A stretch of 64,000 bases of DNA from Thermoplasmatota archaeon (GTDB lineage: Archaea > Thermoplasmatota > Penumbrarchaeia > JASLWR01): positions 104,961 to 168,960 of the forward strand of contig JASLWR010000001.1 of the NCBI GenBank assembly GCA_030740765.1. Direction: 5' to 3'. Positions 5,131 through 49,641 of this stretch are shown here, in pieces (within the stretch, counting starts at the first letter, position 1; each line of letters begins with the position of its first letter). The position numbers and the translations under genes are program-made. Below the pieces are notes generated by a model. It did not search any database. It was given only the letters and a program-made list of their open reading frames with translations, and was not told where the DNA came from.

Positions 5131-5254
5131 GATGGAATGAACATCGGTGGATGATCCATTATTTGCGAGAAATATCCGGACCAAAACTTATTTTGGGCAT
5201 AACGCCGATATATGCTGGTTTATTTTACTAGACCCCATACAAGGTCGTGGCCAA

Positions 5255-11200: not shown

Positions 11201-13036
11201 TCATTCAAGTTCGATATTGTGGGCAAGTACACGGTTACGTTGAACGTCCTTGACGCTATGGGGAACCGTGACAGCGATACTATGGAAGTGACGATTAAGG
11301 ATACCACGCCGCCGGTTGTGATGATATCGGGACCCCTTGAGGTGGGGTTGGGAGACCTGGCTTCCTTCAACGGAACCCTGTCCCGTGACAACGTGGGTAT
11401 AGCAAGCTACCTGTGGAGCATCCTGCATAACGGGAACTTCGAGAACAGCGCCGGGATATCAATGGAATACAGATTCAAAGAGATAGGCGAATATACCATA
11501 ACACTCACCGTCACCGACAGCGAAGGGAACTCGGGAACAAAGGTCCTCATTATCATCGTTGCAGACCTCGAGCCGCCACAGGCCGACCCTGGTGAAGACG
11601 TCGACCTGACAGAGCCCGGTTTGGTAATCTTCGACGGAGCTGGCTCGTTAGATAATGGAGAGATCGAGAACTACACGTGGACTTTCACCTATCAGGGTGA
11701 AACGATTAAGCTCTACGGCAAATCGCCCTCGTTTTCATTCGACGTTCCCGGGAACTATAAAGTTGTACTGGACGTCACCGATGCCGAGGGGAACCACCAC
11801 GAAATGGCCAAATACGTAAACGTCTCCGCCCCTGCCGACAAACGTGGAGAGGCAGACGAGGGAAAATGGATGCAGGGTGCCGGATTCTGGATAATGCTGG
11901 CCGTTCTGGTACTGATCGTGCTTCTGGTCCTGTTTTTCCTGTTCGGAAGGAGAAGAAAAAAGGAATCCAAAAAGGAGAAAGCACCTGAAGAGGAAGAGGA
12001 GATCGTCATGGTGTCCAAGGTAACGAGCGGCCCGCTTGGATACGGCAAGACCGGTACAAAGAGGAAAGGAAAAGTTGCAACTGGGAACTCAGGGGCCCAT
12101 ACAAGAGGAAAGGAGGCAAAATCCAAGCGCGGAGCGGGACGCAGAAAGGGGACGGGGGCAGTGAAGAAGGGAAAGATATCCGCAGAAGCCCGCAAAGGAC
12201 GATCACGGGGCAAGAAGGGAAGGAAAACGGGAAAGAAGGGTGGAGGGAAACGCACGGGTAAAAGAAAAAGGGGGCGGATTGCTTCATTCCCCGAGGAGAG
12301 TTCCGAGAAAAGAAGTGAAAAAATAAAACCCGAAACGGTGAAAAGCGGCGATATGTGGGATGAGGATGAATGGGCATTCAAGATCAGCCGCTTTGGTGAG
12401 GAGGAGGGAAATCTGTTGGAAGGCCGCGAGGATGAGGAGCCGTGGGGAGGAGATTGGCACGATGACACCGAGGAAGAGGAGGCGGAGGAAGGGACATGGC
12501 AGGATGACAGTGAGGAAGAGGGGACAGTGGAAGAAACTTGGGAGGACGACAGTGAGGAGGTGGAAAAGGATCAATGGACCGACGGATTTGGAGAAGAAGA
12601 TATGGCGGTCCATGCAGATTGGGGTGAGGAAGCGGAACACTCCGGCGAGGAGGAAGAAGAGGACGAGTATGAATGTCCGGACTGTGGTTTTGCGCTGGGT
12701 GAGGACGATAATATATGTCCGTCCTGCGGTGCGGAGTTTGAGGAGGAAGAGGAAGTGGATGAAGCCTCCTACTGGCCCGAAGAAGGCATATTTGAGCCGC
12801 CCGAGCTGGAAGGGGGAAGATACGGAGACAATGACGAAGAGGTCGATTTCATCATTGATACCGGCTACGTGGAATTCGGTGCTGATGACGTGGAGTACGA
12901 ATGTCCCGAATGCAGGGGGGCCATAGGTCAGTGGGATACGGACTGCCAGGAGTGCGGGACCACATTTGACGATGAGGACGAGGAAGGTGAGGTCGCTGGT
13001 GCCAGTTGGGACGATGATATGGAATCATGGGACTGA
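5255..13036 (+). CDS. Giant surface papain-like cysteine protease with PKD/Ig-like domains, transmembrane helix and cytoplasmic zinc ribbons
   Basis: I start at ATG 5255, where a signal peptide begins (MLRLSQIVIFTCIVLLFS); the frame is open further upstream without leader-like sequence. 2593 residues. The papain-type (C1A) domain is at about 130-370: Cys153 in NEGSCVAWA, His317 in GTNHAN, Asn346 in NQWGTGWGG. Next come two PKD domains, eight repeats beginning like IWNGGLSTGELTLFSANITD, and eight more PKD-like domains, all rich in NxT/S sites. A membrane helix is at about 2208-2231, followed by a Lys/Arg-rich stretch, a very acidic stretch, and two CxxC...CxxC zinc ribbons (about 2474-2494 and 2550-2570). 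Extracellular proteolysis is likely; the cytoplasmic ribbons suggest a signalling or anchoring role, which is inference. It overlaps the next gene by 10 bases. Confidence 0.9.
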   Translation: MLRLSQIVIFTCIVLLFSTIPFDSLLREEETVAEADVIDPENIGKSGSILTVGSGGPDKKVIMTTRSASPDDIEELKARAGVWQPGVDYNPIINGRGTGLKPPTEEEWAGMVGDFGIVEGIAPPINGPISASVDHFSSNYFPPIGNQANEGSCVAWATAYYTKTFQEAKEHGWDLSGASFGGGEPTEAYHDRIMSPDFMYHQINDGLDTGSYYNSAMDLCNRIGISSWKNMPYDPNDSTTWPTEAAWREAPWYRTDQGYNYLWTYPPNNANGITDLKTWLDNENLAIISLRAEEYANLDANDLWKNDTYSDAAGTNHANTIIGYDDNFGPYTENGQARTGAFKVANQWGTGWGGDSNNDGMYWLSYECMKWDIEYTFLFDDKIAYEPKVLSVFEMSHNKRGECDVSVGIGDPDSPVSVKDFDDWYNGFDGGNEPFPNNKMVFDITEFMDDVPEINGSTIFIKVNDTASATTGSIDSFSVEYYSDYLNDTLFIKALSGDPGVNTDPNNPVNASLTLEDITNPVADAGTDQTVGNGTTVYFNGTGSSDNSAVDNYTWNFSYKQAQQAPQGGKLGFILNGNGKYNVTLYGDKPNFTFNSYDEYNVTLNVTDPSGNWNLDHVIINVKDMAAPGADAGPDQIVDQGDTVTFDGSGSSDDVGIDNYTWNFSYDGQERTLYNVSPNFTFVIVGSYVVNLNVTDAEGNSDTDTMNVTVNDTTAPQFGAKWHNTLGPGDPAFFSANITDNVGINTVMFDFTLNGIVNHNWSVTNNTGNSWEINFTMPVDTTSIEYFFWAEDTSNNGGASNNESFGVNDSEAPAFGTIWKNTPTTGETAFFSGNITDNVGVNTVMFDFTLNGISHYNWSVTNNTGDSWTISIPLSGNAASIEYYFWAEDGSGNGANDTNASVVVGDNDKAAFGNIWSSGLSTGELALFSANITDNIGVNSVKFGYTVNGNINENVSVVNQTGDNWTITIRIPTDCANFKYFFWADDAAGNERRTGETSPAVTDNDRPVIGIIWNGGITTGDNALFSANITDNIGINSVKFGYTVNGNINENVTVANQSGDDWTITIRIPVDCVSFEFFFWVDDAVGNERKSVTQTPGVADNDRPVIGVIWNGGLSTGELTLFSANITDNIGVNSVKFGYTVNGNINENVSVTNQSGNDWTITIRIPADCTSFEYFFWSDDATGNEKKSTIRTPVVADNDRPAIGTIWNAVLSTGELVLFSANITENIGVNSVKFGYTVNGAINENVSVLNQTGDNWTIMIRIPADCVSFEYFFWVNDGAGNERRSATQTPAVSDNDLPVFGIIWASTLTTGDSAYISANITDNIVVDTVTLDFTINGAQRHNWSVTNKTGNSWDITILLPADTLFFEYKFHARDSSGNWEESQNATPSVSDNDKPMYGVQWESSLSTGEMACFSVNVSDNLAIGAVMFDFTINNVSNYNWTVTNVTGESWSIYIRIPGYATSIEYWFWSQDASGNRETSNKTVFAVTDNDGPVSDPGMNITTDQHIPVVFNGSNSTDNVGVDNYTWNFIYEGQATKLYGMSPVFIFHIVGTYTVTLNVSDASGQWDLNTTEVTVLDITPPTVEAGSDRTIDQHEILYFDSTGSGDNVGIGNYTWNFTCGGICVQLYGAYPIFTFNFAGNFSIELIILDRVGNQARDNMTVNVNDITLPVAEAGFDLVVNQHQEAILNGSASTDNTGIKNYTWEFMDNGTLKTLYGAVVGYVFHNAGTFNITLTARDATGNMISDYLNVTVNDTTPPKAMAGPNVTIVQHEYVTFDGRNSIDNVGIVNYTWSITPVISRVVLNGALVSYQFHTAGIFTVNLTTMDSRGNRAYDILVLTVTDIAKPVASAGPDITVDQHERVSFNGNASSDNVGITNYTWTFSYEGSDITLVGEKTSFVFHRAGVYEVTLTVSDALGNNETVDLTVTVLDITNPVADAGGELQSGDQDLVTFDASGSTDNVGIVAYNWTFIFNENTYVIKGKNVSFKFDIVGKYTVTLNVLDAMGNRDSDTMEVTIKDTTPPVVMISGPLEVGLGDLASFNGTLSRDNVGIASYLWSILHNGNFENSAGISMEYRFKEIGEYTITLTVTDSEGNSGTKVLIIIVADLEPPQADPGEDVDLTEPGLVIFDGAGSLDNGEIENYTWTFTYQGETIKLYGKSPSFSFDVPGNYKVVLDVTDAEGNHHEMAKYVNVSAPADKRGEADEGKWMQGAGFWIMLAVLVLIVLLVLFFLFGRRRKKESKKEKAPEEEEEIVMVSKVTSGPLGYGKTGTKRKGKVATGNSGAHTRGKEAKSKRGAGRRKGTGAVKKGKISAEARKGRSRGKKGRKTGKKGGGKRTGKRKRGRIASFPEESSEKRSEKIKPETVKSGDMWDEDEWAFKISRFGEEEGNLLEGREDEEPWGGDWHDDTEEEEAEEGTWQDDSEEEGTVEETWEDDSEEVEKDQWTDGFGEEDMAVHADWGEEAEHSGEEEEEDEYECPDCGFALGEDDNICPSCGAEFEEEEEVDEASYWPEEGIFEPPELEGGRYGDNDEEVDFIIDTGYVEFGADDVEYECPECRGAIGQWDTDCQECGTTFDDEDEEGEVAGASWDDDMESWD

Positions 13037-17116: not shown

Positions 17117-20100
17117 GTGACCAATATGATTGGCAAGAACAAGATAATTATTTGTATGATCGTGGCGGGATTGATCTTTTCTTCCTTAGAGTTATTTATC
17201 AATACCGAGAGAAAATCGGATACCGTGATAGATTCTTCCTCCCTGTTAGGTAATATCCAGGTAAAAGATAATACGAGAGGTGCGGAAACCGTAATCCTCT
17301 CCGACGATTTTGATGATGGTTGGGGGAACTTTTCCGGGTGGAGTAATAATCAGGGGCGGTGCGAAAGACGGGAGAGCTATGACGGCGATTCTCTGGCCTA
17401 CAACGGTCACAGTATTTTTATGTGGGGGACGACCGAGAACTGGAACGCTCCCAGTTATACCACCGTTACCACCTACCTTGATCTGAGTTACACCAGTGAT
17501 GTCAAGCTGTCCTTTTATTACGCATACGAGGATATGGAAAATAATTACGACTTCTTATGGATCGATGTGGACCGCGATGGCAATCCGGGCAACGGTTTTT
17601 CAAACTCGCAGTGGCAGGTGGTACCGGATGCGGATGACGGCGACCACGCCACATCATCCAATGATTATATCTTAAAAGAATATGACCTCTCGCAGTTCTC
17701 GGGCAACAGCAATGTAATTCTCCGGTTCAGATGTCAGTTCAGATGGCGCGATCGATGGGATATCATAGCACTGGATAATATTTCAGTGAAGGTAAATTTC
17801 AAACCCCGATATATGAAAGACAGCTTTAATGTTTCACCAGCTATCTTATATACCCTGACCGAGGACAATGCGATAGTAAATCTTTCTATATCGGACCCGG
17901 ACGATCACTCGGTGGGCGATTTCTCCATGACGGTGGACGTCCGCCTCAGTGATAACATAACGCAGCTTCGATATGCGGACAACATTTCAACCAAGGACCC
18001 GAGGTTCTCCATGGAACGTATCTTACACGGTCTTTTTAACTTAACGCTGTATTTTGATCCCGGAAGGGTATTCGGTTTCGGTTTCGTGGATCTGAAGATA
18101 ATATTATTCGACCCGGACGGGCTCACTGGGGGAACTCAATACCAATCACTGGAGAATGCAATCGAGCTAAAGAACCATTATCCAGGAATAAATGTCAGTT
18201 CCATGAGCAACAACAAATTACGGCTAAACAAACTCGGGGGATCGTCCATAGCGTTTTCCGGTACCTACCAGGACCTTGATTTGCAAAGCGATTCCGATTA
18301 CAATCTTAGCATCCGAATAAGAGATGAGGATAACGTCGTCTACGACCTAACGACCAATGCAGAAAACGGAGAGCCGGGGTTATCCATAACAAAAATATCG
18401 AACCATACCTACGACTATCAGTATATCTGGATGCCGGATGATGGATATCCAACGTCCTATTACGATCTTAGCATCGAGGTGAACGATGGGGTGGGGGGTC
18501 AAAACATCTCGACTTTCGAGGATCAGTCCGATACATTTGAGCTCTACAGGGCCGAGATCACGGGGGTTTCCATGGAGCCGGAATACTGCAACCGCTATCT
18601 GGGTAAACCCATCTTTATCAACTACACGGTTGTGGAAAATATTTCCGGTGAATACGATCTTAGAAGCGTGGACGTGAACATCAGTCTGAGAAGCTCCAAC
18701 GGCACCATTAAGACCATTTATCCGAATGCGAGGAGATCCGCTTTCCAAATTATCAATCTTACAAACAATTCCTTCATGGCTTCGTACAAGTTTGAGGAAT
18801 CAGATTCTTTTCCGGATGACGAGTTCGATCTCAAGATCACTATCCATGACGGAGCCGAACCCATATTCGTCTCCGGTTATGATGATAATCTCGACGTCTT
18901 TTCCACATACTTCAACATAGAACCCCAGATACTTCAGGTGAGTGCTTCGCCCATTCGCCTCAACACCTATTACGAGCCAGAGCTGACCTTGTCAGTTAGG
19001 TTTAGCGATCCCGACCTTCACGCGGCGGGGTTATTCTCGTACGAAGTGTCGATCAAAAACCCTTCTGATGAAATTCTCTTGGTATATTCAACGGGTGTCA
19101 AGGAAGTGGCAAAGCTGACCTCATCACTGGCGGAGGGCGATGTATACCAAGCAAATATTACCTTCGAGGTGAACGGGACCTTCGAGGTGGGGACCTATGA
19201 CGTTGAAGTGAAGATATATGATGCGTTAGGAGCCGGAGCGTCCGTACCCTTTTCGGAAAACGCGGATCTCTTCGAGCTATACTTCAACGTACCGCCGTCG
19301 CCGCCTGACACTCTGCTGCCTGACGAGACACGGGATACCGCTCCTTTCATACACTGGTATGGTGCAACAGATACCATAACGGAGAGCTATGATCTGGAAT
19401 ACTATATTATGATCGGAACTGTGAAGGGAAGCGGAGATGTGGTGCCGTGGCGATGGATCGGAAAGAATCCATTTTACCAGGTCGAAACAGCCCTATCCTA
19501 TGATACCTATTACCTGGAAGTTATAGCCACCGACGGATTGGATAATTCCACGCCGTTAATGCAGACGCTGGATATATTTGTGCTTGCCAACCTTCCTCCC
19601 ACACCGCCGAACAATATCCTCCCGGACTTTACCATGGAACAGTTGCCGTTGATAACGTGGTCCGGAGCGGCGGACGGTGATGGAGATTCGATAATTGGAA
19701 ACTTTCTCCAGATCGGAACTTATCCGTACAGCGATGACATCCTTCCATGGGTTGACGTGGGACCTTACTCACAATACCAGATCCAGAATGAGCTGCCACT
19801 TGGTACCTATTACGTGCAGGTCCGCGTCTCAGACGGGCATTCCTCATCGTACATACAGCAGGAATTACTCCATATAGTCGGTGATGCCAACGCACCACCG
19901 TCGCCACCAACGGAGATGTACCCCGTCAAGACGTGGGAGACCACGGCGAATATTAGCTGGGTAGGTGCCTACGACATCAACAACGACACCATAACCTATT
20001 CGATACAGATAGGAAGCAGCAGTGGGATTGGTGACGTTCTGCCCTGGGTGGACGGGCTCACCACGAACAACTACCGGACAACGAAAGAACTCGCTATAGG

Positions 20101-21613
20101 TAAATACTACGTTCAGATCAAGGCATTCGATGGTGAATTATTTTCCGTGATATTCGAAGCGATATTGGAAATAACCGAAAAGGGAAACATGCCGCCTTCC
20201 CATGTGAGCAATATATCGCCCAGCACTACAACAAATTTGACTCCCACCATTCATTGGGACCCTGCAACTGATCCCGAGGGAAAGGATGAAATAATCGTAT
20301 ATTTTATCCAGATAGGCCTGTCCAAGGGTCACGGCGAGATAGTATCCTGGTATCCGGTGCAGAACCATACGAAATTTCAATTATTAAAGGAGCTTGCGCC
20401 GAATGTAATCTACTATGTTCAGATAAAGGCGTTCGACGGTGAGAGTTATTCTCCGGTGGCCTATCAGACACTGGAGATCATAGTTTATATCACGGAGATT
20501 TCTTTTGACGCGCAGATGGAAAATATGACCGTGGAGAAGGGAACAAAATACACATTCAACCTGCGCATCATCAACCGCGGGACGAACGTGGATAATGTCA
20601 CCGTTAAAATCAGTTCGGATAATGAATTTCTCTCATTCATATCTCCACTGGAGAACTCCTTCAGAATGTCCCCGGAAAAAGAGATCATACTTACTCTGAA
20701 TATATTTGTACCCGAGGATTCAACAATTACGGGAGATCATGTCATTAACGCTGAATGTACCTCGGAGATACCGACGTTCTTCTCCGTGACAGAGCAGCCG
20801 CTTTCAATCAATATAGTAGAAAAGAAAGTAAATGATGTGCGTTCGCCACTGGAGAAGTTGATGGAGGACAATCCGTTAATGTTCTACGGGGCAATAGCCA
20901 TGATAGCCCTGATAATCCTGATGATTATCATTATTATGGTGGTGAAACGTATAAAGAACAGGATACCACCGGAACTGCTAGATCGGGAAAATGACAAAAA
21001 GGACATGGCCGAGATCACCTACAGCCCTGTGGTGAAGGGGGGCGTTGTGGCCAAGAGGATCATGCCTGAAGCTAGCGAGCTGTTCAAGAAGAAGGGGGCG
21101 GCGCAGCTGCCGTCGGGCCAAAGCCCCGTGAAGAAACTGCCGGAGCAGAAGAAGCGGCTTGCATTACCACAGTATTCGGTAGTGATCGACATGAACACGA
21201 AGCAGGTGGTGGGACATACCGAGACCGATGGTGCTGCAAAGGATGACAAGGACGATGATGCGGACATAATCGATTTCCAGTACGTGGACGGAAAATACGA
21301 GATCCAGACCACCAGCGTGCCGTCTGCTCATCCGTACCAGAAACCCTCTCCAACACCCAGTGTACCCGGTGAGAGCCTCTACAAGCCTGCTCCCACCGCC
21401 CCGACGCAGAGCAAGTACCAGCCAAAGGCACCGGGATCCGTTCCGGAGCCCATTCCGGGAGCGGTCTCCGGGATGCCGACATCTACTCCTGCGCAGTCAG
21501 CTCCCACCGTACCAAAACCTGCTCCGGCAGCAGGTCCGGCCTCTCCTGTACCAAAACCTACTCCGACAGCATCTGGTGCTGTCTCACCCATGCCGCCTCC
21601 GCCACCTGTATGA
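17117..21613 (+). CDS. Large type I membrane surface protein with repeated beta-sandwich domains and Pro-rich cytoplasmic tail
   Basis: 1498 residues from GTG 17117; ATG 17126 is equally possible and keeps the signal segment (IIICMIVAGLIFSSLELF). The N-terminal block (about 55-230, DDFDDGWGNFSGW ... WDIIALDNISVKV) looks like a MAM- or jelly-roll-type adhesion domain. It is followed by Ig-like domains and, from about 710 to 1120, four fibronectin-III-like units each opening with PP.PP or NMPPS and containing YYVQIKAFDGE-type strands. A membrane helix is at about 1255-1278. The cytoplasmic tail of about 220 residues is rich in Pro, Ala and Lys. No catalytic motif is visible. Adhesion or S-layer-linked receptor functions are plausible. 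Confidence 0.8.
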   Translation: MTNMIGKNKIIICMIVAGLIFSSLELFINTERKSDTVIDSSSLLGNIQVKDNTRGAETVILSDDFDDGWGNFSGWSNNQGRCERRESYDGDSLAYNGHSIFMWGTTENWNAPSYTTVTTYLDLSYTSDVKLSFYYAYEDMENNYDFLWIDVDRDGNPGNGFSNSQWQVVPDADDGDHATSSNDYILKEYDLSQFSGNSNVILRFRCQFRWRDRWDIIALDNISVKVNFKPRYMKDSFNVSPAILYTLTEDNAIVNLSISDPDDHSVGDFSMTVDVRLSDNITQLRYADNISTKDPRFSMERILHGLFNLTLYFDPGRVFGFGFVDLKIILFDPDGLTGGTQYQSLENAIELKNHYPGINVSSMSNNKLRLNKLGGSSIAFSGTYQDLDLQSDSDYNLSIRIRDEDNVVYDLTTNAENGEPGLSITKISNHTYDYQYIWMPDDGYPTSYYDLSIEVNDGVGGQNISTFEDQSDTFELYRAEITGVSMEPEYCNRYLGKPIFINYTVVENISGEYDLRSVDVNISLRSSNGTIKTIYPNARRSAFQIINLTNNSFMASYKFEESDSFPDDEFDLKITIHDGAEPIFVSGYDDNLDVFSTYFNIEPQILQVSASPIRLNTYYEPELTLSVRFSDPDLHAAGLFSYEVSIKNPSDEILLVYSTGVKEVAKLTSSLAEGDVYQANITFEVNGTFEVGTYDVEVKIYDALGAGASVPFSENADLFELYFNVPPSPPDTLLPDETRDTAPFIHWYGATDTITESYDLEYYIMIGTVKGSGDVVPWRWIGKNPFYQVETALSYDTYYLEVIATDGLDNSTPLMQTLDIFVLANLPPTPPNNILPDFTMEQLPLITWSGAADGDGDSIIGNFLQIGTYPYSDDILPWVDVGPYSQYQIQNELPLGTYYVQVRVSDGHSSSYIQQELLHIVGDANAPPSPPTEMYPVKTWETTANISWVGAYDINNDTITYSIQIGSSSGIGDVLPWVDGLTTNNYRTTKELAIGKYYVQIKAFDGELFSVIFEAILEITEKGNMPPSHVSNISPSTTTNLTPTIHWDPATDPEGKDEIIVYFIQIGLSKGHGEIVSWYPVQNHTKFQLLKELAPNVIYYVQIKAFDGESYSPVAYQTLEIIVYITEISFDAQMENMTVEKGTKYTFNLRIINRGTNVDNVTVKISSDNEFLSFISPLENSFRMSPEKEIILTLNIFVPEDSTITGDHVINAECTSEIPTFFSVTEQPLSINIVEKKVNDVRSPLEKLMEDNPLMFYGAIAMIALIILMIIIIMVVKRIKNRIPPELLDRENDKKDMAEITYSPVVKGGVVAKRIMPEASELFKKKGAAQLPSGQSPVKKLPEQKKRLALPQYSVVIDMNTKQVVGHTETDGAAKDDKDDDADIIDFQYVDGKYEIQTTSVPSAHPYQKPSPTPSVPGESLYKPAPTAPTQSKYQPKAPGSVPEPIPGAVSGMPTSTPAQSAPTVPKPAPAAGPASPVPKPTPTASGAVSPMPPPPPV

Positions 21614-29298: not shown

Positions 29299-30441
29299 TT
29301 ACTCATCTTTGGGCAGGGGTTTGGCCAGAACAGCCTCGAACATTTCGTCGTCCTGGTATGCTCCCTGCGCGATGAGCTGGCGGTATTTGATAAAATCGAT
29401 GGTGTCCTTGCCTGTGATCTTCTTCGTGTTGAAGGCATGGAATCCAAGGAAAGCCTCTCCACCCATGTTCGCAGCCAGCCAGTGCCTGTTGTAGTTCTTG
29501 GAGTAATCCCAGAAGAACTTTTTCTTGGCTCTAATGCTGTCGATTGTCTTGATTAGGCAGCCTGGAAACAGGTTTGTGAACCTCCAGATGATGTTGTTCA
29601 CCTCCTTGTTCAGAAGCTCGAAATCGATTTTGGCGTTCCAAACGTATTTCCGTGCTTCCTTGAACTCGTCTCCGGTCTTGAACTCGCCGTATGCGATCTC
29701 ACCGTCATCGATATATTTATCCGTGATCACCTGGGGATTTCTGATCCACTTGTCCCCTTCCTTGATCACCGGGACGGCCTTCGTTATGAAACCTATCCTC
29801 TTCATCTTGTAAGCGGACCACATCTCGCAGCTGATACAGTTCCACATTGCGTCCTCGATCCCCATATACCAGGGCAGGAAATCGCTGGAGCCTCCGTCCG
29901 GTGCGCTGCCGTGCTTGGGTCCCGCCTGCCCGAAAATTGCAAGATCGGAACTGACTGCAAGGTCCGCTGCCATACCTATTTCCTGACCCCCTGCGATCCT
30001 CATACCGTTGACCCTGCAAATAACCGGTTTTTTACAGAAGAGTATTGCATCCACCATGTGGTTGAACAGTTCCATGTATTCCCCGTATTCGTTGCATCGC
30101 TTGGAGTAGTATTCCGCATATTCCTTGGTGTTGCCACCTGTGCAGAATGCTCGGTCTCCCGCGCCGGTGAAGACCACAGCAACCACGCTTCGGTCCACAG
30201 ATGCATTGTGGAATCCAGCGATCACTCCCTTCACCATTTCGGTGGTATATGAATTGTACTGCCGGGGATTATTAAGTGTTATCCATGCAGAATAAAGTCC
30301 TTCCACTTCATTTCCCTTAGGGTCCAGTACCGGTTTCTTTTCATACATCGTGCAGGGAGCTTCCGTTCCGAAATACTCGTCTCCCTTGAACAACTCGTGA
30401 TTCTTTATCTCGTCTTCTCTCGGTAACCAATTCAAAGTCAT
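29299..30441 (-). CDS. bamA: 6-oxocyclohex-1-ene-1-carbonyl-CoA hydrolase (ring-opening hydrolase)
   Basis: 380 residues, matching the family's usual length. A crotonase-superfamily enzyme that adds water and cleaves the alicyclic ring of 6-oxocyclohex-1-ene-1-carbonyl-CoA to 3-hydroxypimelyl-CoA, the committed ring-opening step of anaerobic benzoyl-CoA degradation (also called Oah). The diagnostic stretches are present: CTGGNTKEYAEYYS (100-113), KPVICRVNGMRI, GGQEIGMA and FGQAGPKHGSAPDGG (170-184); these are the regions used to recognise bamA genes. I start at ATG 30441, six bases after a GGAGGG; an upstream frame extension lacks a site. Divergent from the dehydrogenase and hydratase genes of the same pathway. 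Confidence 0.95.
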   Translation of the reverse strand: MTLNWLPREDEIKNHELFKGDEYFGTEAPCTMYEKKPVLDPKGNEVEGLYSAWITLNNPRQYNSYTTEMVKGVIAGFHNASVDRSVVAVVFTGAGDRAFCTGGNTKEYAEYYSKRCNEYGEYMELFNHMVDAILFCKKPVICRVNGMRIAGGQEIGMAADLAVSSDLAIFGQAGPKHGSAPDGGSSDFLPWYMGIEDAMWNCISCEMWSAYKMKRIGFITKAVPVIKEGDKWIRNPQVITDKYIDDGEIAYGEFKTGDEFKEARKYVWNAKIDFELLNKEVNNIIWRFTNLFPGCLIKTIDSIRAKKKFFWDYSKNYNRHWLAANMGGEAFLGFHAFNTKKITGKDTIDFIKYRQLIAQGAYQDDEMFEAVLAKPLPKDE

Positions 30442-30462
30442 TTTTTCCCTCCGTTCTAACAA

Positions 30463-30662
30463 TTATTGACTGGATTATTAAGCCCCGATCAGGTGGATTT
30501 TACCTTATCGAATTAATATTATATGATACTTTTCGTGGTATTCTGGCGCTCCTCCAATGCAGGCGAAGCACTTATTACAATAATATTATATATCGATATA
30601 ATTATGCACTTGCACGACCCTAATGCATTATATCAATTTAACCGAAACAAGAGGGAACAGTA
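30463..30662. promoter_or_regulatory. Divergent promoter region of the benzoyl-CoA lower-pathway genes
   Basis: 200 AT-rich bases separate the hydrolase gene (minus) from the dehydrogenase gene (plus). The 12-bp palindrome TATATCGATATA lies at 30589-30600 inside a longer AT run, with TATA-like boxes on both sides (TTAATATTATATGATAC towards the hydrolase, GCATTATATCAATTTA towards the dehydrogenase). The central palindrome could bind a regulator of both transcripts. Confidence 0.55.
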
Positions 30663-31772
30663 ATGGATTTGCCTGAACAAATTAAAACATGGCAGATGAT
30701 CCGACCCTGGAAAAAGGACAGAGAGACGGGAGAGATAACGGAAGGACGTCTGGAAATCGTGGAGATCCCCGTACCCTTATTGTCTGAAGGCGAGGTTCTG
30801 GTGAAAGTGGCAGGATGCGGAGTTTGCCATACCGATCTCGGATATTTCTATCACGGAATACCCACTATAACAAGGCCGCCACTCGCTCTCGGCCACGAGA
30901 TTTCGGGTGTGATCGTGGCAGGAGACGATCGGTTCATCGGAAAAGAGATAATTGTACCTGCAGTGATGCCTTGCAATGAATGCCCCATATGCGATGAAGG
31001 TCGCGGAAACAGGTGTCTGGGTCAGAAAATGCCGGGCAACAGTATGGGAATTTACGGTGGATTCTCAAGCCACATCCCGGTCCCTGTGGAAGACCTATGT
31101 TTCGTGGAAGACCGCAGAGGATTCGAACTAGAGGAACTTGCTGTTATCGCCGATGCAGTCACCACACCCTTCCAGGCCTGCGTGCGAGGGGATCTCAAAC
31201 CTGGGGACAATGTTATAATAATTGGGACTGGCGGTGGTGTGGGAGTATATGTCACCCAGATGGCCAAGGCATTCGGTGCAAACGCGGTAATCGGAATCGA
31301 TCTGGATCGGAAAAAGCTTGAACGCGCTCTGAATTACGGGGCAGATTTTGTCATCAACTCCACGGACAAGGACGCCTATGCTGTGAAAAACGAATTCAAA
31401 TCCATCTGCAAGAACAACAAATTACCGTCAAGCTACGGGTGGAAGATATTCGAGGTCACCGGGACCAAAGCCGGACAGGAAATGGCACTGGCATTGCTGT
31501 CGTTCATTGGAAAACTGGTGGTTGTGGGTTTCGGCATGCAGAAGAACCAGTACAGCATATCCCGCCTGATGGCATTCGATGCCGATATCATCGGTACCTG
31601 GGGATGTCTGCCGAAATACTATGATAATGTGCTGAAATGGGTTCTGGATGGAACCATAAAGATCAAACCCTTCGTAGAAACCAGACCCATGAGCCAGATC
31701 AAGGATGCTTTCAAGGATGCCAAGTCCGGGAAACTGACGAAACGAATCGTCTTGACACCGGATTTCGTATAG
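30663..31772 (+). CDS. had: 6-hydroxycyclohex-1-ene-1-carbonyl-CoA dehydrogenase
   Basis: 369 residues of the zinc-dependent alcohol dehydrogenase (MDR) family. It oxidises 6-hydroxycyclohex-1-ene-1-carbonyl-CoA with NAD to the 6-oxo compound used by the ring-opening hydrolase (also called BamQ). The N-terminus KTWQMIRPWKKDRETGEI and the run GCGVCHTDLGYFYHGIPTI are characteristic of this enzyme. Catalytic zinc region Cys52/Cys55 and GHE (77-79); structural zinc Cys104, 107, 110 and 118; nucleotide loop GTGGGVG (188-194). ATG 30663 follows GAGGGA. It is followed by the diene hydratase gene after 120 bases that include a small AAGGG-TTCG-CCCTT hairpin (31834-31847). Confidence 0.93.
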   Translation: MDLPEQIKTWQMIRPWKKDRETGEITEGRLEIVEIPVPLLSEGEVLVKVAGCGVCHTDLGYFYHGIPTITRPPLALGHEISGVIVAGDDRFIGKEIIVPAVMPCNECPICDEGRGNRCLGQKMPGNSMGIYGGFSSHIPVPVEDLCFVEDRRGFELEELAVIADAVTTPFQACVRGDLKPGDNVIIIGTGGGVGVYVTQMAKAFGANAVIGIDLDRKKLERALNYGADFVINSTDKDAYAVKNEFKSICKNNKLPSSYGWKIFEVTGTKAGQEMALALLSFIGKLVVVGFGMQKNQYSISRLMAFDADIIGTWGCLPKYYDNVLKWVLDGTIKIKPFVETRPMSQIKDAFKDAKSGKLTKRIVLTPDFV

Positions 31773-31891
31773 ATTATTTTATCCCAAAGCTAAGATTTAA
31801 TGACTTTCTCCACGAACGGCTATATTGCGATTGAAGGGTTCGCCCTTGCGGTTAGTGGGAGTGATCAAGGGCTTGAAAGGAGTAAGATACA

Positions 31892-32659
31892 ATGGAATAC
31901 AATACGATCATTGTGGATGAGCGGGATCTTGTGGGAAGGATAACCTTCAACAGGCCCCCGGTAAATATTCTGAACATTGAAATGATGCGTGAGATAAACG
32001 ACGCATTGAAATCTTTCCAGGTGCGGAAGCTCAGGGTACTGGTGCTGGATGCAAACGGCAAGGCATTCTCGGCCGGTGTGGACGTATCCGATCACATGGG
32101 AGGCAAGGCTGATGAGATGATCCGCGTCTTTCATGCCATTTTTCATAACATGAGCATGATCGAAGCCCCCATAGTGGCCCTGGTCAAAGGGGCAGCTCTT
32201 GGGGGAGGATGCGAGGTGGTTGCCTTTTGTGATCTGGTCCTTGCCTCGGACAGGGCAAAGTTCGGGCAGCCGGAGATAAAAGTGGGTGTGTTTCCACCGG
32301 TTGCCGCAGCAATATTTCCCAAAATTATGCCTTATAAAAGAGCTTTGGAGCTGCTGCTGACAGGCGATATCATAAAAGCCGATGAGGCTCGCAACCTTGG
32401 TCTCGTGAATCAGATTTTCCCATTCGATACCTTCGAGGCTGATGCCGAAAGGTTCATCCGGGAGAAAATAGCCTGCAACAGCGCAGTGGTTCTCCGCTTG
32501 ACGAAAAAGGCATTCGTGGAAGGCGCTTCGAATAATTATCACGAGGCTATGGTAAAGATCGAGGACATCTATCTGAGCGAGCTCATGCTAAGCAAGGATG
32601 CAAACGAAGGGCTCGAGGCATTTATCGAAAAACGGCCGCCCAAATGGATTGACGAATAA
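31892..32659 (+). CDS. dch: Cyclohexa-1,5-diene-1-carbonyl-CoA hydratase
   Basis: 255 residues, a crotonase-fold hydratase of the size expected for Dch (BamR). It adds water to the dienoyl-CoA made by benzoyl-CoA reductase, giving 6-hydroxycyclohex-1-ene-1-carbonyl-CoA for the neighbouring dehydrogenase. The signatures FSAGVDVSDH (59-68), GAALGGGCE (100-108, oxyanion hole) and FGQPEIKVGVFPP (124-136) fit Dch better than generic enoyl-CoA hydratase. The start has a clear GAAAGGAG site. With its two neighbours it completes the path from dienoyl-CoA to 3-hydroxypimelyl-CoA. The biotin ligase gene follows about 100 bases on. Confidence 0.92.
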   Translation: MEYNTIIVDERDLVGRITFNRPPVNILNIEMMREINDALKSFQVRKLRVLVLDANGKAFSAGVDVSDHMGGKADEMIRVFHAIFHNMSMIEAPIVALVKGAALGGGCEVVAFCDLVLASDRAKFGQPEIKVGVFPPVAAAIFPKIMPYKRALELLLTGDIIKADEARNLGLVNQIFPFDTFEADAERFIREKIACNSAVVLRLTKKAFVEGASNNYHEAMVKIEDIYLSELMLSKDANEGLEAFIEKRPPKWIDE

Positions 32660-33826: not shown

Positions 33827-36800
33827 TTGTCGTATAAAATGTCTGCTCATACTTTTACAATTATTATTGTGATACTATTATTGGTAATGCCCATTACGGG
33901 AACCGCCATTTCCGATCACAACAGCTCGAAGAGAAGTAACTACCATAATGGCGGTGCGGTTCTATCAGAAAATAATCACTTCATATCCATCCAAGTCGAA
34001 GAGACCTCGCAATCGCATCAAGACCTGTTCGGTTATACTGTCAAGGGCTTTGTAAACGAGTACAAGAACGGCGGTTTCAACCCAGGTGACAGGAATCGCA
34101 ACCGAATCGAGGATACTCTCGAGGAACAGGTCAAGGACAGTGCTCCGGGGGACCTTGTGGAATGCATGGTCCTGCTCTCAACGGATGATTCACTATTCGA
34201 TGTATCATCTCTCGAAAACGCTGGCGCATATATAATGGAGGTATCGGATTATATCGACCAGATTCATGTCCGGTTACCAGTTGGAATGCTTGACGAGGTA
34301 TCCCTTCTTCCCGATGTGGCCGAGGTCTGCGCTATACCAAGGCTTAAAACTTATTTGGACAGTTCGGGCAACGCTATTAACATGCCTGATGTGTATTCCA
34401 TAGGTTTTACGGGGCAGGGAACTACGATAGCAGTACTCGATACTGGTATCGATGGCAATCATGAGGCATTCCAGGGTGGAAAAATACTGGCTTTCAAGGA
34501 TTATACTGTCTGGCCCCCACAGATCCGAAGCGCTTATGATGACGACGGGCATGGAACCCATTGCGCATCCATTGCGGCAGGGAATCCTCCGGGTGGCGGG
34601 GGATCGGGCGGGCGGTACCGAGGCATGGCATACAATGCAGACCTATTGATAGCCAGGGTTTTGGGAGCCTCCACCTATGGCTATGTGGTGGAAGCTGTTA
34701 ACTGGGTCGTGTCAAATCGTAATACTTACAATGTTCACGTCATGTCACTTTCCATAGGGACCGTGAACCAGCAGGGAGGCCCCATCCACAGCGATTCCAT
34801 GAACAGCGCTTGCAACGATGCCGTAGGGTACGGTATAGTGGTATGTGCTGCAGCCGGGAACGATGGCGAGGATGGACTGCACATTGGCTCGCCTGGAAAC
34901 GCCCCTCATGTAGTCACGGTTGGCTCCAGTAATGATTTCGGTCAGCTTTCATCATTCTCTTCCAGGGGTCCAGGAATTTCAACCGGCGCCATGAAACCGG
35001 ATGTGCTGGCTCCAGGTGAATACATCAAAGCGGCAAGGGCATCGGGAACCAGCATGGGTGGGGCTGGCTGGACGAACGGCGTTGTGGACCCCACCAACTA
35101 CATAGGCGCCCAGGGCACCTCAATGTCATGCCCGCACGTTGCGGGAGTGGCAGCCATACTGAGAGAAGCGAATTCGGATACGTCGCCCGGAGATATCCGC
35201 AACGCACTTAGGGAGAGCGCACCGAATGCTAACAATCCAAATAACGACCGTGGATGCGGTATGATAGATGCAAAGGACGCTCTCGATCTCATTGGTAATT
35301 CACCCAAGATCACAGCCATCATGGTCAAAGGTGGGAATGGCATCCAAGGGCATGTTCCCGATGTGGACGAGGACGAAGTGATCCAGTTCTCCGCAACTGC
35401 AACAGATGACAAGAACCTGCTTGAATCCTCTTTTGTGTGGGATTTCGACAACGACGGGAACAATGACGCTACCGGGAGAACGGTTAGCACCAGCTACCCC
35501 ACCGCAAAGCTGCGGAACGGTCTCAAAACCATCAAACTCGAAGTTACAGATGTAGACAACTTCAAGGTCACCGAATATTGTTACGTAAGGGTTCACAACG
35601 TTGCCCCCACCGGGAATATAATAACATCCGGACCCCTGGATGAAGGTGTGTTGATAGAGTTCACTGGGGCCCTCTCCGATACTGCCTCGGACCTGGATTC
35701 TCTGAAATGGTACTGGGATTTCGACGGGGAGAACGACATGCCATACGATGGCATCAACGTTTGGAGCGGCGACCATATTCCCGATAACGACCGTATGGCC
35801 GATGGGACAGGAACCTCGGCAAGTGGATCCTACACCTATCTCGAAAGCGGGACCACAACCGTGCTGCTTATCGTATGGGATGATGACGTGGACCAGACGA
35901 ACTTAACTAGTTCCATTACCATTCAAAACCGTAAACCCAACGCCATGATCGATCTAGGCGTCGATATGAATTTGGACTCTCTCTACGAGGATGATGTCAT
36001 AGAATTCGATGCATCGGGCTCTACGGATACGGAAAACGACATGAATACGCTGGAGTACAAATGGGATTTCGGGGACGGTGAGGAATCGGAGTGGCAGGAT
36101 GATCCGGACGGGACGCACAGTTACTCACAACAGGGTTACTATACGGTCACGATCCGATTGAAGGACAACGATGGTGCAGGCGATACGGACAGCATGGATA
36201 TAGAGATCAAGAACAAGAGACCCACTGCGGTGATCAACGAGTTTCAGGATGAATATTTCGAAGGAGATATCATAAATTTGATAGCTACGAATTCAACGGA
36301 TACCCCAGGAGATATAACATCGCTGCAGTACTACTGGGACCTGGACACCGATACCGATGAGGACAATGACGGGATACCTGACAACGATCACGATATAAAA
36401 GGAGGACAGGAGGAATTTCCCTATGTCAACAACGGCACCTATCACATTTCTCTCATTGTTGAGGACAACGACGGCGTTTCCGATATAACAGATGCCACAA
36501 TATATATTAAGAACTCACAGCCGTATGATCTAAACCTGTCTGCCGTCTACGGGGGGAAAGTTCAAAACGAAGCATTCGAGGTGGAGGAAGGGGAGGAAGT
36601 GGCTTTTCTGGGAGATGCAACTGACATTTCCGGAGATATCGACGGGCTGAACTACTCGTGGGATTTCGGAGACGGCGGGTCTCTCGCATTCGGGAAGAGT
36701 GCCCGACATACTTTCCTGTATTCCAGTGAAAACGCATTCGTGATTCAACTAACGGTAACAGACGATGAACCGGATAACGCGGCCGGTGCCACCTTTTCCA

Positions 36801-38242
36801 TATACGTTAAGAATATCGCGCCAACTCTGGAACTGGGGGATGATCAGGTCCTGGAAAAGAACGGCTCCATAATAGTGGAACCGAAGATCACCGATTCTCC
36901 CGGCGATCTGGCCAGGATGTGGTACAGGTGGTCCATCGTCGGAAAAGATGCACAGCCGGACTTCAATAACCTTGATTCGACCGATGAAATATTGTCCCAT
37001 GAGTTCGTGAAAGACGGCGAATATGACATTTATCTCAGGATAGAGGACGATAACGGTGCAGCGGTAATGGATAGTATAAGGGTGGTGGCAAAGAATGTGG
37101 GGACGAAGGTTAAAGTGAAGCCAGGGGCCAGACCGGGTGAAAATCCTGAGGAGGAAGTAGAAAAGGATCAGGGAATGCCTGCACAGGTGGGACGGTTCCT
37201 TAAAGGTGTGGACTCGTGGGTCTGGCTGGTAACGGGGGGCGTTTTGATCGTATTGCTTTCGTTCATAATAGTGATCAAGGTCACAAGACGAAGAAGGTAT
37301 CGGAAAAACCTAATGAAAGCGTTTAAAAGAGACGATGTGGAAGAGGCAGCACAGAAACGTAGAAGCAAACAGGATGGTAAGGAAAACGAAGAGAACTTCG
37401 ATTATCTTTCCAACGAAATGGGATTGCGGAGTACGAGAAAAAAGGGGACGGACACCGGTTATGAGGAACTTTACGTCGAAAAGAAGCCAAATAGCCGCCA
37501 ATCCATGTTGGAACGCGAACTGGCATATGACGCTAATGATCTGAATTTTTTCAATGACGTGGGTGAAACCGAAGCAGATGATCTGTCGGACCTCACCGAA
37601 AATATGTCGGACCTTCCCGAACTGGACATGGCCCATTACGCTGCGATAAAGGAATACGAGGCAGAATATGAGCTTGATACAGAGTGGAGCGACGATGAGA
37701 CCAATGTGCTTCCCGAGCAAGATGAGTTCTGGCCTTTACTTGAGCCTGCTGTGAAGAAGAGGACGAAAGATAAAAAGAAATTTGATGAACTCTTCGCACT
37801 TCCGGTAACGGGGAAGAGTGCGAAATCCAAAAAACACGTTATGAAACCCTTGTCCCGTGAAAAGAAAATACCCCTTATGAAACCACTCAAGGAGGAGAAA
37901 TCATCCCACAAAAGAGGGAAGACCGGGGGAAAGACAGCAATAAGAGCTCTTCCACCGATGATGAAGCCGTTCACTGAAGAGAGAGCGGGACGGGGAAAAT
38001 CCGGCGGAGTATATCATGACGAGAAGGACTGGATGAAGAAGATGGAGGAGCGACCCTGTCGCGTTGAGGTTATTTTACCGGAAGACCAGGACGAATGCAT
38101 TGAGGAAACAGGACTGGAGCTCAGCTTCAAACCGCCAGCCAGATACAAACGAACCGAAAAAAATTCTCCCACCTGCAAGCACTGCAAGGCCCCTGTTAAA
38201 AAGGGATGGTGGATGTGCCCGAACTGCAACAAAAAGATCTGA
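33827..38242 (+). CDS. Surface subtilisin-like protease with PKD domains, membrane helix and cytoplasmic zinc ribbon
   Basis: 1471 residues from TTG 33827 (AGGTGG site); ATG 33839 is an alternative, both before a signal peptide (FTIIIVILLLVMPITG). An inhibitor-like propeptide (about 75-170) leads into the S8 domain with Asp205 (AVLDTGID), His242 (GHGTH) and Ser432 (GTSMSCPHVAG). Six or so PKD-like domains follow (phrases such as YKWDFGDGEESE). The membrane helix is at about 1128-1150, then a charged cytoplasmic region and a CxxC...CxxC zinc ribbon at the end (CKHCKAP ... MCPNCN). The layout (protease, PKD stalk, helix, cytoplasmic ribbon) is the same as in the papain-like protein at 5255 although the proteases are unrelated. 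The TGA is followed by an AGGGGGGG that probably serves the next gene. Confidence 0.93.
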   Translation: MSYKMSAHTFTIIIVILLLVMPITGTAISDHNSSKRSNYHNGGAVLSENNHFISIQVEETSQSHQDLFGYTVKGFVNEYKNGGFNPGDRNRNRIEDTLEEQVKDSAPGDLVECMVLLSTDDSLFDVSSLENAGAYIMEVSDYIDQIHVRLPVGMLDEVSLLPDVAEVCAIPRLKTYLDSSGNAINMPDVYSIGFTGQGTTIAVLDTGIDGNHEAFQGGKILAFKDYTVWPPQIRSAYDDDGHGTHCASIAAGNPPGGGGSGGRYRGMAYNADLLIARVLGASTYGYVVEAVNWVVSNRNTYNVHVMSLSIGTVNQQGGPIHSDSMNSACNDAVGYGIVVCAAAGNDGEDGLHIGSPGNAPHVVTVGSSNDFGQLSSFSSRGPGISTGAMKPDVLAPGEYIKAARASGTSMGGAGWTNGVVDPTNYIGAQGTSMSCPHVAGVAAILREANSDTSPGDIRNALRESAPNANNPNNDRGCGMIDAKDALDLIGNSPKITAIMVKGGNGIQGHVPDVDEDEVIQFSATATDDKNLLESSFVWDFDNDGNNDATGRTVSTSYPTAKLRNGLKTIKLEVTDVDNFKVTEYCYVRVHNVAPTGNIITSGPLDEGVLIEFTGALSDTASDLDSLKWYWDFDGENDMPYDGINVWSGDHIPDNDRMADGTGTSASGSYTYLESGTTTVLLIVWDDDVDQTNLTSSITIQNRKPNAMIDLGVDMNLDSLYEDDVIEFDASGSTDTENDMNTLEYKWDFGDGEESEWQDDPDGTHSYSQQGYYTVTIRLKDNDGAGDTDSMDIEIKNKRPTAVINEFQDEYFEGDIINLIATNSTDTPGDITSLQYYWDLDTDTDEDNDGIPDNDHDIKGGQEEFPYVNNGTYHISLIVEDNDGVSDITDATIYIKNSQPYDLNLSAVYGGKVQNEAFEVEEGEEVAFLGDATDISGDIDGLNYSWDFGDGGSLAFGKSARHTFLYSSENAFVIQLTVTDDEPDNAAGATFSIYVKNIAPTLELGDDQVLEKNGSIIVEPKITDSPGDLARMWYRWSIVGKDAQPDFNNLDSTDEILSHEFVKDGEYDIYLRIEDDNGAAVMDSIRVVAKNVGTKVKVKPGARPGENPEEEVEKDQGMPAQVGRFLKGVDSWVWLVTGGVLIVLLSFIIVIKVTRRRRYRKNLMKAFKRDDVEEAAQKRRSKQDGKENEENFDYLSNEMGLRSTRKKGTDTGYEELYVEKKPNSRQSMLERELAYDANDLNFFNDVGETEADDLSDLTENMSDLPELDMAHYAAIKEYEAEYELDTEWSDDETNVLPEQDEFWPLLEPAVKKRTKDKKKFDELFALPVTGKSAKSKKHVMKPLSREKKIPLMKPLKEEKSSHKRGKTGGKTAIRALPPMMKPFTEERAGRGKSGGVYHDEKDWMKKMEERPCRVEVILPEDQDECIEETGLELSFKPPARYKRTEKNSPTCKHCKAPVKKGWWMCPNCNKKI

Positions 38243-48296: not shown

Positions 48297-48474
48297 TTTG
48301 CGACAAGGATTATTCCATCTCAAATTAATATTATTTAATTTCAGGTTTCTCGAAATATGGGTGATTCATGTTTTTGTTAAGAAAGAAATAAATACGACCA
48401 GACTACTTTTCAAACTTCCCGATGACTGTCAAAGCTGAAAAAAATTCCCACCATTGTGCCCCCAGGTGCCCCAT

Positions 48475-49641
48475 ATGGACATATTATCCACTGGCAGATC
48501 CACAAAAGAAATCGGCGAAGAGACAGAAACTCTCACTAGAAGCGTGATAGCCAGGTTCGTAGACCGCGAAATAATTCCGGTGGCAAAGGAGATCGATGAT
48601 GCTGAGGAATTCCCCTTTGTAATGTTCAAAAAACTAGCTGATATCGGAGCTTTCGGGATCAGGTATCCCGTGGAGATTGGCGGTGGTGGCGGCAATACTG
48701 CTCTATATAACATAATTTGCGAGGAGATCGCCCGGGGATCAATGAGCCTTGGCGCAATAACCGCCATGCAGGCTCTAATGGGCACCAATTTTATATTCAA
48801 GTTCGGCACGCCCGAACATCACGAGAGATATCTGAAACCGGCCATAAGGGGCGAAAAGGTAGCGGCATTTGCTCTTACCGAGCCCGATGCCGGAACAGAC
48901 CTAAATTCGATACGTACCAGCGCGGTGCGCGAAGGTGACGAATACGTTATCAACGGTACGAAGACCTGGATCACAAACGCCCCGGTTGCGGACATGTTCA
49001 CCGTTCTGTGCCAGACCGACCGGAAAAAAGGACTGAGGGGCGTAAATTTTTTCCTGGTGGACAGGAATACGGACGGCCTAACGGTATCACCAAAGTTCGA
49101 CAAGATCGGGACCCGAGCCTCCATCATTTCCGAGCTAGCGTTCGACAACGTGCGAATACCGCTTGAGAACAGGCTCGGCGACGAAGGCAGGGGTATCGGT
49201 AACCTAATGAGAATACTCGCCCAGATCCGTGTAATGACAGCATCACTGAGCCTGGGCCTCGCACGGGCGGCCTTTGACGACAGCTTCCGTTACGCAACTG
49301 AACGAGAACAATTCGGAAGACCCATAGGAAAGTTCCAGGCCATACGGATGAAACTTGCCACAATGGCCACCGAGATCGAGGCATCGAGGCATTTTATTCG
49401 CTACGTGACAGGCATGATCGACCGGGATGAGAACACCCTCAAGGAAGCATCCATGGCAAAATATTTTGTCTCGGAAGTGGCATGCCGCGCCGCTGACCAG
49501 GCCACGCGGATATACGGTAGCTACAGTTTCTCAAATGAGTATGCCGTATCGAGGTACTACAGGGATACAAGGTTCCTGCTGTTCGGGGGCGGGACCTCGG
49601 AGATACTTCAGGACGTCATTGCAAGACAGCTGGGACTATAA
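48475..49641 (+). CDS. Acyl-CoA dehydrogenase
   Basis: 388 residues from ATG 48475 after AGGTG. An FAD enzyme that oxidises acyl-CoA to enoyl-CoA. Signatures: FALTEPDAGTDLNSI (FAD/substrate loop), WITNA, the C-terminal YATEREQFGRPIGKFQA and the end GGGTSEILQDVIARQLGL. Where many family members have the catalytic Glu in YEGT, this one has FGGGTSEI, so the base must come from elsewhere, as in other subgroups. Position just upstream of the methylmalonyl-CoA mutase genes suggests branched- or dicarboxylic-acid oxidation; glutaryl- or pimelyl-CoA derivatives from the benzoyl-CoA route are possible substrates, but specificity cannot be read from the sequence. Confidence 0.92.
   Translation: MDILSTGRSTKEIGEETETLTRSVIARFVDREIIPVAKEIDDAEEFPFVMFKKLADIGAFGIRYPVEIGGGGGNTALYNIICEEIARGSMSLGAITAMQALMGTNFIFKFGTPEHHERYLKPAIRGEKVAAFALTEPDAGTDLNSIRTSAVREGDEYVINGTKTWITNAPVADMFTVLCQTDRKKGLRGVNFFLVDRNTDGLTVSPKFDKIGTRASIISELAFDNVRIPLENRLGDEGRGIGNLMRILAQIRVMTASLSLGLARAAFDDSFRYATEREQFGRPIGKFQAIRMKLATMATEIEASRHFIRYVTGMIDRDENTLKEASMAKYFVSEVACRAADQATRIYGSYSFSNEYAVSRYYRDTRFLLFGGGTSEILQDVIARQLGL

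Follow-up and report, generated by a model that had tools for sequence, protein, structure and literature searches.

Predicted genes for anaerobic benzoyl-CoA degradation in a Thermoplasmatota archaeon: a ring-cleavage cluster with a class I reductase and a ligase elsewhere in the genome

The stretch of 64,000 nucleotides analysed here (the window; contig JASLWR010000001.1 of assembly GCA_030740765.1) carries three adjacent genes, bamA (oah), had and a candidate dch, which with a benzoate-CoA ligase on contig C77 and the reductase BzdNOPQ on contig C22 very probably form the middle section of an anaerobic benzoyl-coenzyme A (benzoyl-CoA) pathway in a Thermoplasmatota archaeon. On this gene set the archaeon is probably capable of consuming aromatic compounds. 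The route, comprising ligase, class I reductase and ring cleavage, is tied to an archaeal genome by its linkage to rRNA and lipid genes, and it matters for two questions: which organisms break down aromatic carbon where oxygen is absent, and whether an ATP-dependent reductase is affordable for anaerobes with little energy to spend. Our analysis establishes which genes are present, the families to which they belong, their linkage, their host and their phylogeny; it covers a metagenome-assembled genome (MAG) of 3.59 Mb in 158 contigs, 93.7% complete with an estimated contamination of 1.81%. The window features under study are as follows.

29299-30441, minus strand: bamA/oah, encoding BamA/Oah (380 amino acids from ATG, frame intact; TIGR03200 equivalog)
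30442-30662, no strand: intergenic gap between bamA and had-dch (221 bp; 35% G+C)
30663-31772, plus strand: had, encoding Had (369 amino acids, frame intact; TIGR03201 equivalog)
31892-32659, plus strand: dch, encoding a candidate dienoyl-CoA hydratase (255 amino acids, frame intact; best family TIGR03189)

An earlier note, made from the letters of this DNA alone, had proposed three adjacent ring-cleavage genes arranged divergently around a gap of about 200 bp. Both points hold: the three open reading frames are intact, BamA and Had exceed curated family cut-offs, and bamA is divergent from had-dch across a gap measured at 221 bp. BamA scores 561.7 bits over its full length with the NCBIfam model TIGR03200 (cut-off 464.45), the next-best crotonase family reaching only 104 bits, and its length lies within the approximately 360-380 amino acids of its family, longer than generic crotonases. 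It is 83-88% identical to the BamA of G006, G076, L046 and L047, the members of its clade described below; with bamA products from elsewhere in Thermoplasmatota, from Desulfobacterota and from further groups, identity is about 68-75%. Had scores 463.9 bits with TIGR03201 (NCBIfam; cut-off 338.65), and its nearly end-to-end alignment with PDB entry 7qul (E 4e-90) preserves GCGVCHTDLG, GHEISG and the four-Cys lobe, the Zn-ligand motifs of medium-chain dehydrogenases/reductases. Its homologue in the closed Thermoplasmata chromosome CP070751.1 is 81% identical, and bacterial homologues are at most 68% identical. Chance is excluded for BamA and Had because their family scores lie about 100 bits or more over the cut-offs.

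The genome-wide search for a benzoyl-CoA reductase and a ligase that the earlier note had called for recovered both. A gene run on C22 encodes BzdN (464.1 bits, cut-off 453.8), BzdO (550.0 bits, cut-off 448.6), a BzdP-like protein of the activase family located between BzdO and BzdQ, BzdQ itself (419.7 bits, cut-off 380.2), a 93-amino-acid ferredoxin, and NuoE-like, NuoF-like and NuoG-N/GltD-like proteins. By family assignment, the predicted enzyme is a class I, ATP-dependent benzoyl-CoA reductase of the bzd type. The note had held that a genome with no such reductase would speak against its reading; BzdNOPQ on C22 shows that this genome is not of that kind. A class II reductase (BamB-I) was rejected: the sole gene of the aldehyde ferredoxin oxidoreductase (AFOR) family in the genome is nearest to the aldehyde ferredoxin oxidoreductase 1aor (199.5 bits), matches BamB (4z3w) only partially (78 bits) and is not BamB-like. 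The benzoate-CoA ligase on C77 scores 644.8 bits with TIGR02262 (cut-off 375.25). A frame-broken ligase, raised by a flagged TGA, was likewise rejected, the TGA being the natural stop of an intact frame. Separately, one cluster at L011:9532-15623 (G000 contig C80) combines an activase, a 2-hydroxyacyl-CoA dehydratase-like subunit (HadB-like, 226 bits), an acyl-CoA synthetase and an AMP-ligase, and perhaps serves amino acid fermentation.

In the pathway that we propose, benzoate would be converted to benzoyl-CoA by the C77 ligase, and benzoyl-CoA would be dearomatised in a two-electron, ATP-driven reaction by BzdNOPQ, fed by the small ferredoxin. The NuoE/NuoF/GltD-like oxidoreductase whose genes directly follow probably re-reduces this ferredoxin from NAD(P)H. 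The resulting dienoyl-CoA would be hydrated by the product of 31892-32659, the hydrated product oxidised by Had, presumably with NAD+, and the ring opened hydrolytically by BamA to give 3-hydroxypimeloyl-CoA, which would enter beta-oxidation. Expression, substrate, electron flow, electron sink and the later beta-oxidation are what we infer beyond these genes.

Several points weigh against this pathway. Its genes are spread over three contigs of the 158-contig assembly, and the dch product falls below the cut-off of its best family, as detailed below. No archaeal-type CdhA, a Wood-Ljungdahl marker relevant to the electron sink, was found over cut-off, and the acyl-CoA dehydrogenase of the window (48454-49641) is below every specific cut-off. 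The later steps from 3-hydroxypimeloyl-CoA to acetyl-CoA are assumed rather than assigned gene by gene, and an ATP-dependent reductase carries a cost that fermenters can ill afford. It is possible, although we would not wager on it, that in this archaeal class a dedicated NuoE-NuoF-(NuoG/GltD) complex, either flavin-based and electron-bifurcating or an NADH:ferredoxin complex, encoded in the bzdNOPQ gene run, supplies the ATP-dependent reductase. If so, the energy cost would fall to a level at which a strict anaerobe could subsist on benzoate via the expensive class I route.

Three alternatives compete with parts of this pathway. The reductase and the ring-cleavage set could act mainly on another arene-CoA, either a substituted benzoyl-CoA or a breakdown product of aromatic amino acids, instead of benzoate. 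Substrate range is known to vary among class I reductases, and G006 encodes an indolepyruvate ferredoxin oxidoreductase within the 20 kb of sequence surrounding its bamA, which would fit an aromatic amino acid route. Nevertheless, we judge this unlikely in view of the strong match of the ligase to the benzoate-CoA ligase model and of BamA, Had, BzdN, BzdO and BzdQ all exceeding equivalog cut-offs.

Slightly less likely still is that the third gene encodes an ordinary enoyl-CoA hydratase for later beta-oxidation, dienoyl-CoA hydration being left to another crotonase. The protein reaches only 177.8 bits with TIGR03189 (cut-off 292.5), hardly more than the 177.1 bits that it obtains with generic enoyl-CoA hydratase models. 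The diene hydratase named in the earlier note thus stands as to best family and bamA linkage, but the call is weaker on its own than those for BamA and Had. The missed cut-off is no argument against the name, because two bacterial crotonases linked to bamA miss it too (188.8 and 168.7 bits). Moreover, the closest relatives of the dch product among the sequences compared are crotonases near bamA in both domains: it is 66-68% identical to those of the Thermoplasmatota loci L060, L077 and L144 and about 50% identical to the bamA-linked bacterial ones. In bacteria the homologues frequently stand side by side as had-bamA-dch. In the dch tree it groups with archaeal crotonases with 99% support in the Shimodaira-Hasegawa-like approximate likelihood ratio test (SH-aLRT), although the rows of this tree were mostly drawn from bamA neighbourhoods, making clustering by linkage partly circular. 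The dch name rests on linkage and phylogeny, and the tree supports, rather than proves, this function.

A binning artefact, with some aromatic genes coming from a co-occurring bacterium such as a member of the Desulfobacterota, is very unlikely. It could draw on the 158 contigs and 1.81% estimated contamination of the MAG, on the mostly bacterial origin of BamA relatives at 69-75% identity (among the matches listed) and on the 85% identity of the BamA in the bacterial MAG L047. However, the ligase adjoins the gene for glycerol-1-phosphate dehydrogenase (G1PDH), an archaeal lipid enzyme scoring over cut-off, with an archaeal 23S rRNA gene about 1.4 kb away; the 171-kb window contig carries an archaellum-type ATPase (best family, below curated cut-off); and tetranucleotide usage is common to the window contig, C22 and C77 (r mostly 0.91-0.95, two end pieces of C22 giving 0.84-0.87 with C77, versus 0.46-0.77 for other genomes). 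In addition, homologues of BamA, Had and BzdO with 83, 70 and 85% identity occur in the same-class MAG G076, and the closed chromosome CP070751.1 holds all three genes. The Thermoplasmatota host suggested earlier is borne out by the linkage of the ligase and the composition common to the contigs.

The trees were built on the best 80 of at least 584 BamA loci and without type sequences of Ferroglobus, Thauera, Syntrophus and Geobacter. Within this sampling, the window proteins sit with bamA-linked ring-cleavage homologues. Window BamA belongs to a clade (100/100) with G006 (another class), G076, L046 (a closed chromosome labelled Methanomassiliicoccales archaeon) and L047; a second, separate Thermoplasmatota clade holds L060, L077, L083 and seven rows from genomes of the phylum, and a third, again separate, holds G005 and G017. 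Forcing the 16 archaeal BamAs into one clade was rejected by the approximately unbiased (AU) test (p = 0.0002), and a topology that puts L047 outside the other members of the clade of window BamA, all four archaeal, was not rejected (AU p 0.32). The bacterial label of L047 looks right: archaeal G1PDH gave no score over cut-off in its genome, and HflK is encoded at its locus. L047 (JALGZP010000027.1) encodes at 8001-9137 a BamA 85% identical to that of the window, along with a Had only 48% identical to window Had; on these identities it reads as a case of piecewise transfer between domains. Since archaeal monophyly is rejected and this bacterial BamA is so similar, BamA has been exchanged between domains, direction left aside, which agrees with the transfer that the earlier note had raised as a possibility. 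These genes very probably crossed between bacteria and archaea to enter the phylum, Thermoplasmatota acquiring them more than once. Window Had groups with the Had of CP070751.1 and G076 (SH-aLRT 99%). A plasmid collection searched for BamA references gave no match.

Across 390 genomes of the phylum, BamA exceeds its cut-off in 13 and BzdO in 17, with 12 carrying both (Fisher p = 3.6e-18, a value that overstates the number of independent events as the genomes are related). The pair is patchy in the phylum, yet bamA and bzdO travel together. The sole BamA carrier without BzdO is G003, whose BamA is divergent, and in two other labelled Thermoplasmatota MAGs bzdNOP lies within 5 kb of bamA. The 3-kb locus of G177, which shares its GTDB phylum with the genome of the window, is contained in L083, labelled Candidatus Thermoplasmatota by NCBI, and BzdO coordinates are identical in G177 and G393, the genome of L083; the two are one genome, which identifies the phylum as Thermoplasmatota. 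BzdO without BamA over cut-off occurs in G011, G293 and G360, which are 94-95% complete; in G360, a BamA-like crotonase (161 bits) is encoded on contig C28 at a distance of 10 kb from bzdO.

The downstream genes vary as well. Six genomes, G006, G043, G107, G125, G392 and G393, lack a canonical Had. Between dch and bamA, L144 (7740-8909), L060 (6671-7855) and L077 (6697-7917) carry on the minus strand another Zn dehydrogenase, which shares about 26% identity with Had and scores 111-120 bits with TIGR03201 in the two tested (cut-off 338.65); it looks like a non-orthologous replacement of Had. In L046 (closed chromosome CP070739.1), a Had with 87% identity to window Had survives as no more than its C-terminal 61 residues, encoded at 11889-12071 on the minus strand, at the end of a 627-amino-acid frame with no other NCBIfam match; this remnant is predicted to reflect gene breakage or fusion. 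Many genomes of one Thermoplasmatota family (f8) encode, next to a BcrB-like protein, a BamA-like crotonase of about 380 amino acids that scores about 160-205 bits with TIGR03200, far below its cut-off; the single BcrB-like protein tested reached 344.6 bits with TIGR02260 (cut-off 486.55). These neighbours, found at L034:1351-3860 (G378:C7:107387-109350), G341:C75, G354:C6, G153:C126, G004:C5 and G218:C22, are a possible unrecognised pair for dearomatisation and ring opening.

The divergent topology of bamA and a dehydrogenase-dch unit recurs in L144, L060 and L077, and both promoters are presumed to lie within the 221-bp gap. The palindrome that the earlier note had placed there is present, as TATATCGATATA at 30589-30600 (12 bp) in A+T-rich sequence, but lies within chance: palindromes of at least equal length arise in 10.6% of dinucleotide shuffles of the gap, and we rejected it as an operator. 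A search of the window and its upstream flank against Rfam gave no match. The G+C content of bamA, had and dch is 0.50, compared with 0.49 in flanking genes; recent foreign DNA was rejected on composition, and there is no sign of recent import because the base composition of the cluster equals that of its flanks. Elsewhere in the window, 5147-13036, 17117-21613 and 33827-38242 encode very large predicted surface proteins (1471-2629 amino acids), several with a C-terminal membrane helix and charged tail, the last with a subtilisin-like domain judged by eye.

The class I pathway of Azoarcus/Aromatoleum comprises bzdNOPQ, the ferredoxin gene bzdM and bzdV. The archaeal genes match it in family at each central step and share the order bzdN-O-P-Q, after which come a ferredoxin and a GltD-like oxidoreductase; they differ in their archaeal host, their distribution over at least three contigs, the divergence of bamA from had-dch and the NuoE/NuoF-like genes beside the GltD-like one. 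Ferroglobus placidus (Archaeoglobi), cited in PMC6472368, is similarly an anaerobic archaeon with a class I reductase, but belongs to a different phylum and is not in our trees. Closer to the present host, bcr genes with oah, dch and had were reported in Thermoplasmata and Bathyarchaeota MAGs in 2019 (PMC6472368), and bcrABCD in Ca. Yaplasmales in 2022 (PMC9239135) and in estuarine Thermoplasmatota (PMC8329499). A member of the Thermoplasmatota from a benzene culture is noted to be without most of these genes (PMC10570749). The earlier note had expected a notable extension to Thermoplasmatota; the host holds, but the 2019 and 2022 reports make the extension less notable. The Thermoplasmata MAG and Ca. 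Yaplasmales share with our genome the phylum and the class I reductase, and the three downstream genes are named in PMC6472368; window BamA nevertheless falls in a supported clade separate from the labelled Thermoplasmatota L060, L077 and L083, and gene arrangement and dehydrogenase type differ. Hermodarchaeota carry a bzd cluster for which transfer with Chloroflexi was proposed (PMC8163825); they too are archaea with bcrABCD, a ferredoxin, a BzdV-like protein, Dch and Had, but the host is an Asgard archaeon with Dch and Had on the reductase contig, whereas here bzd and bam genes lie on different contigs. Set beside these systems, our finding is a well-anchored further case of a kind already reported from relatives.
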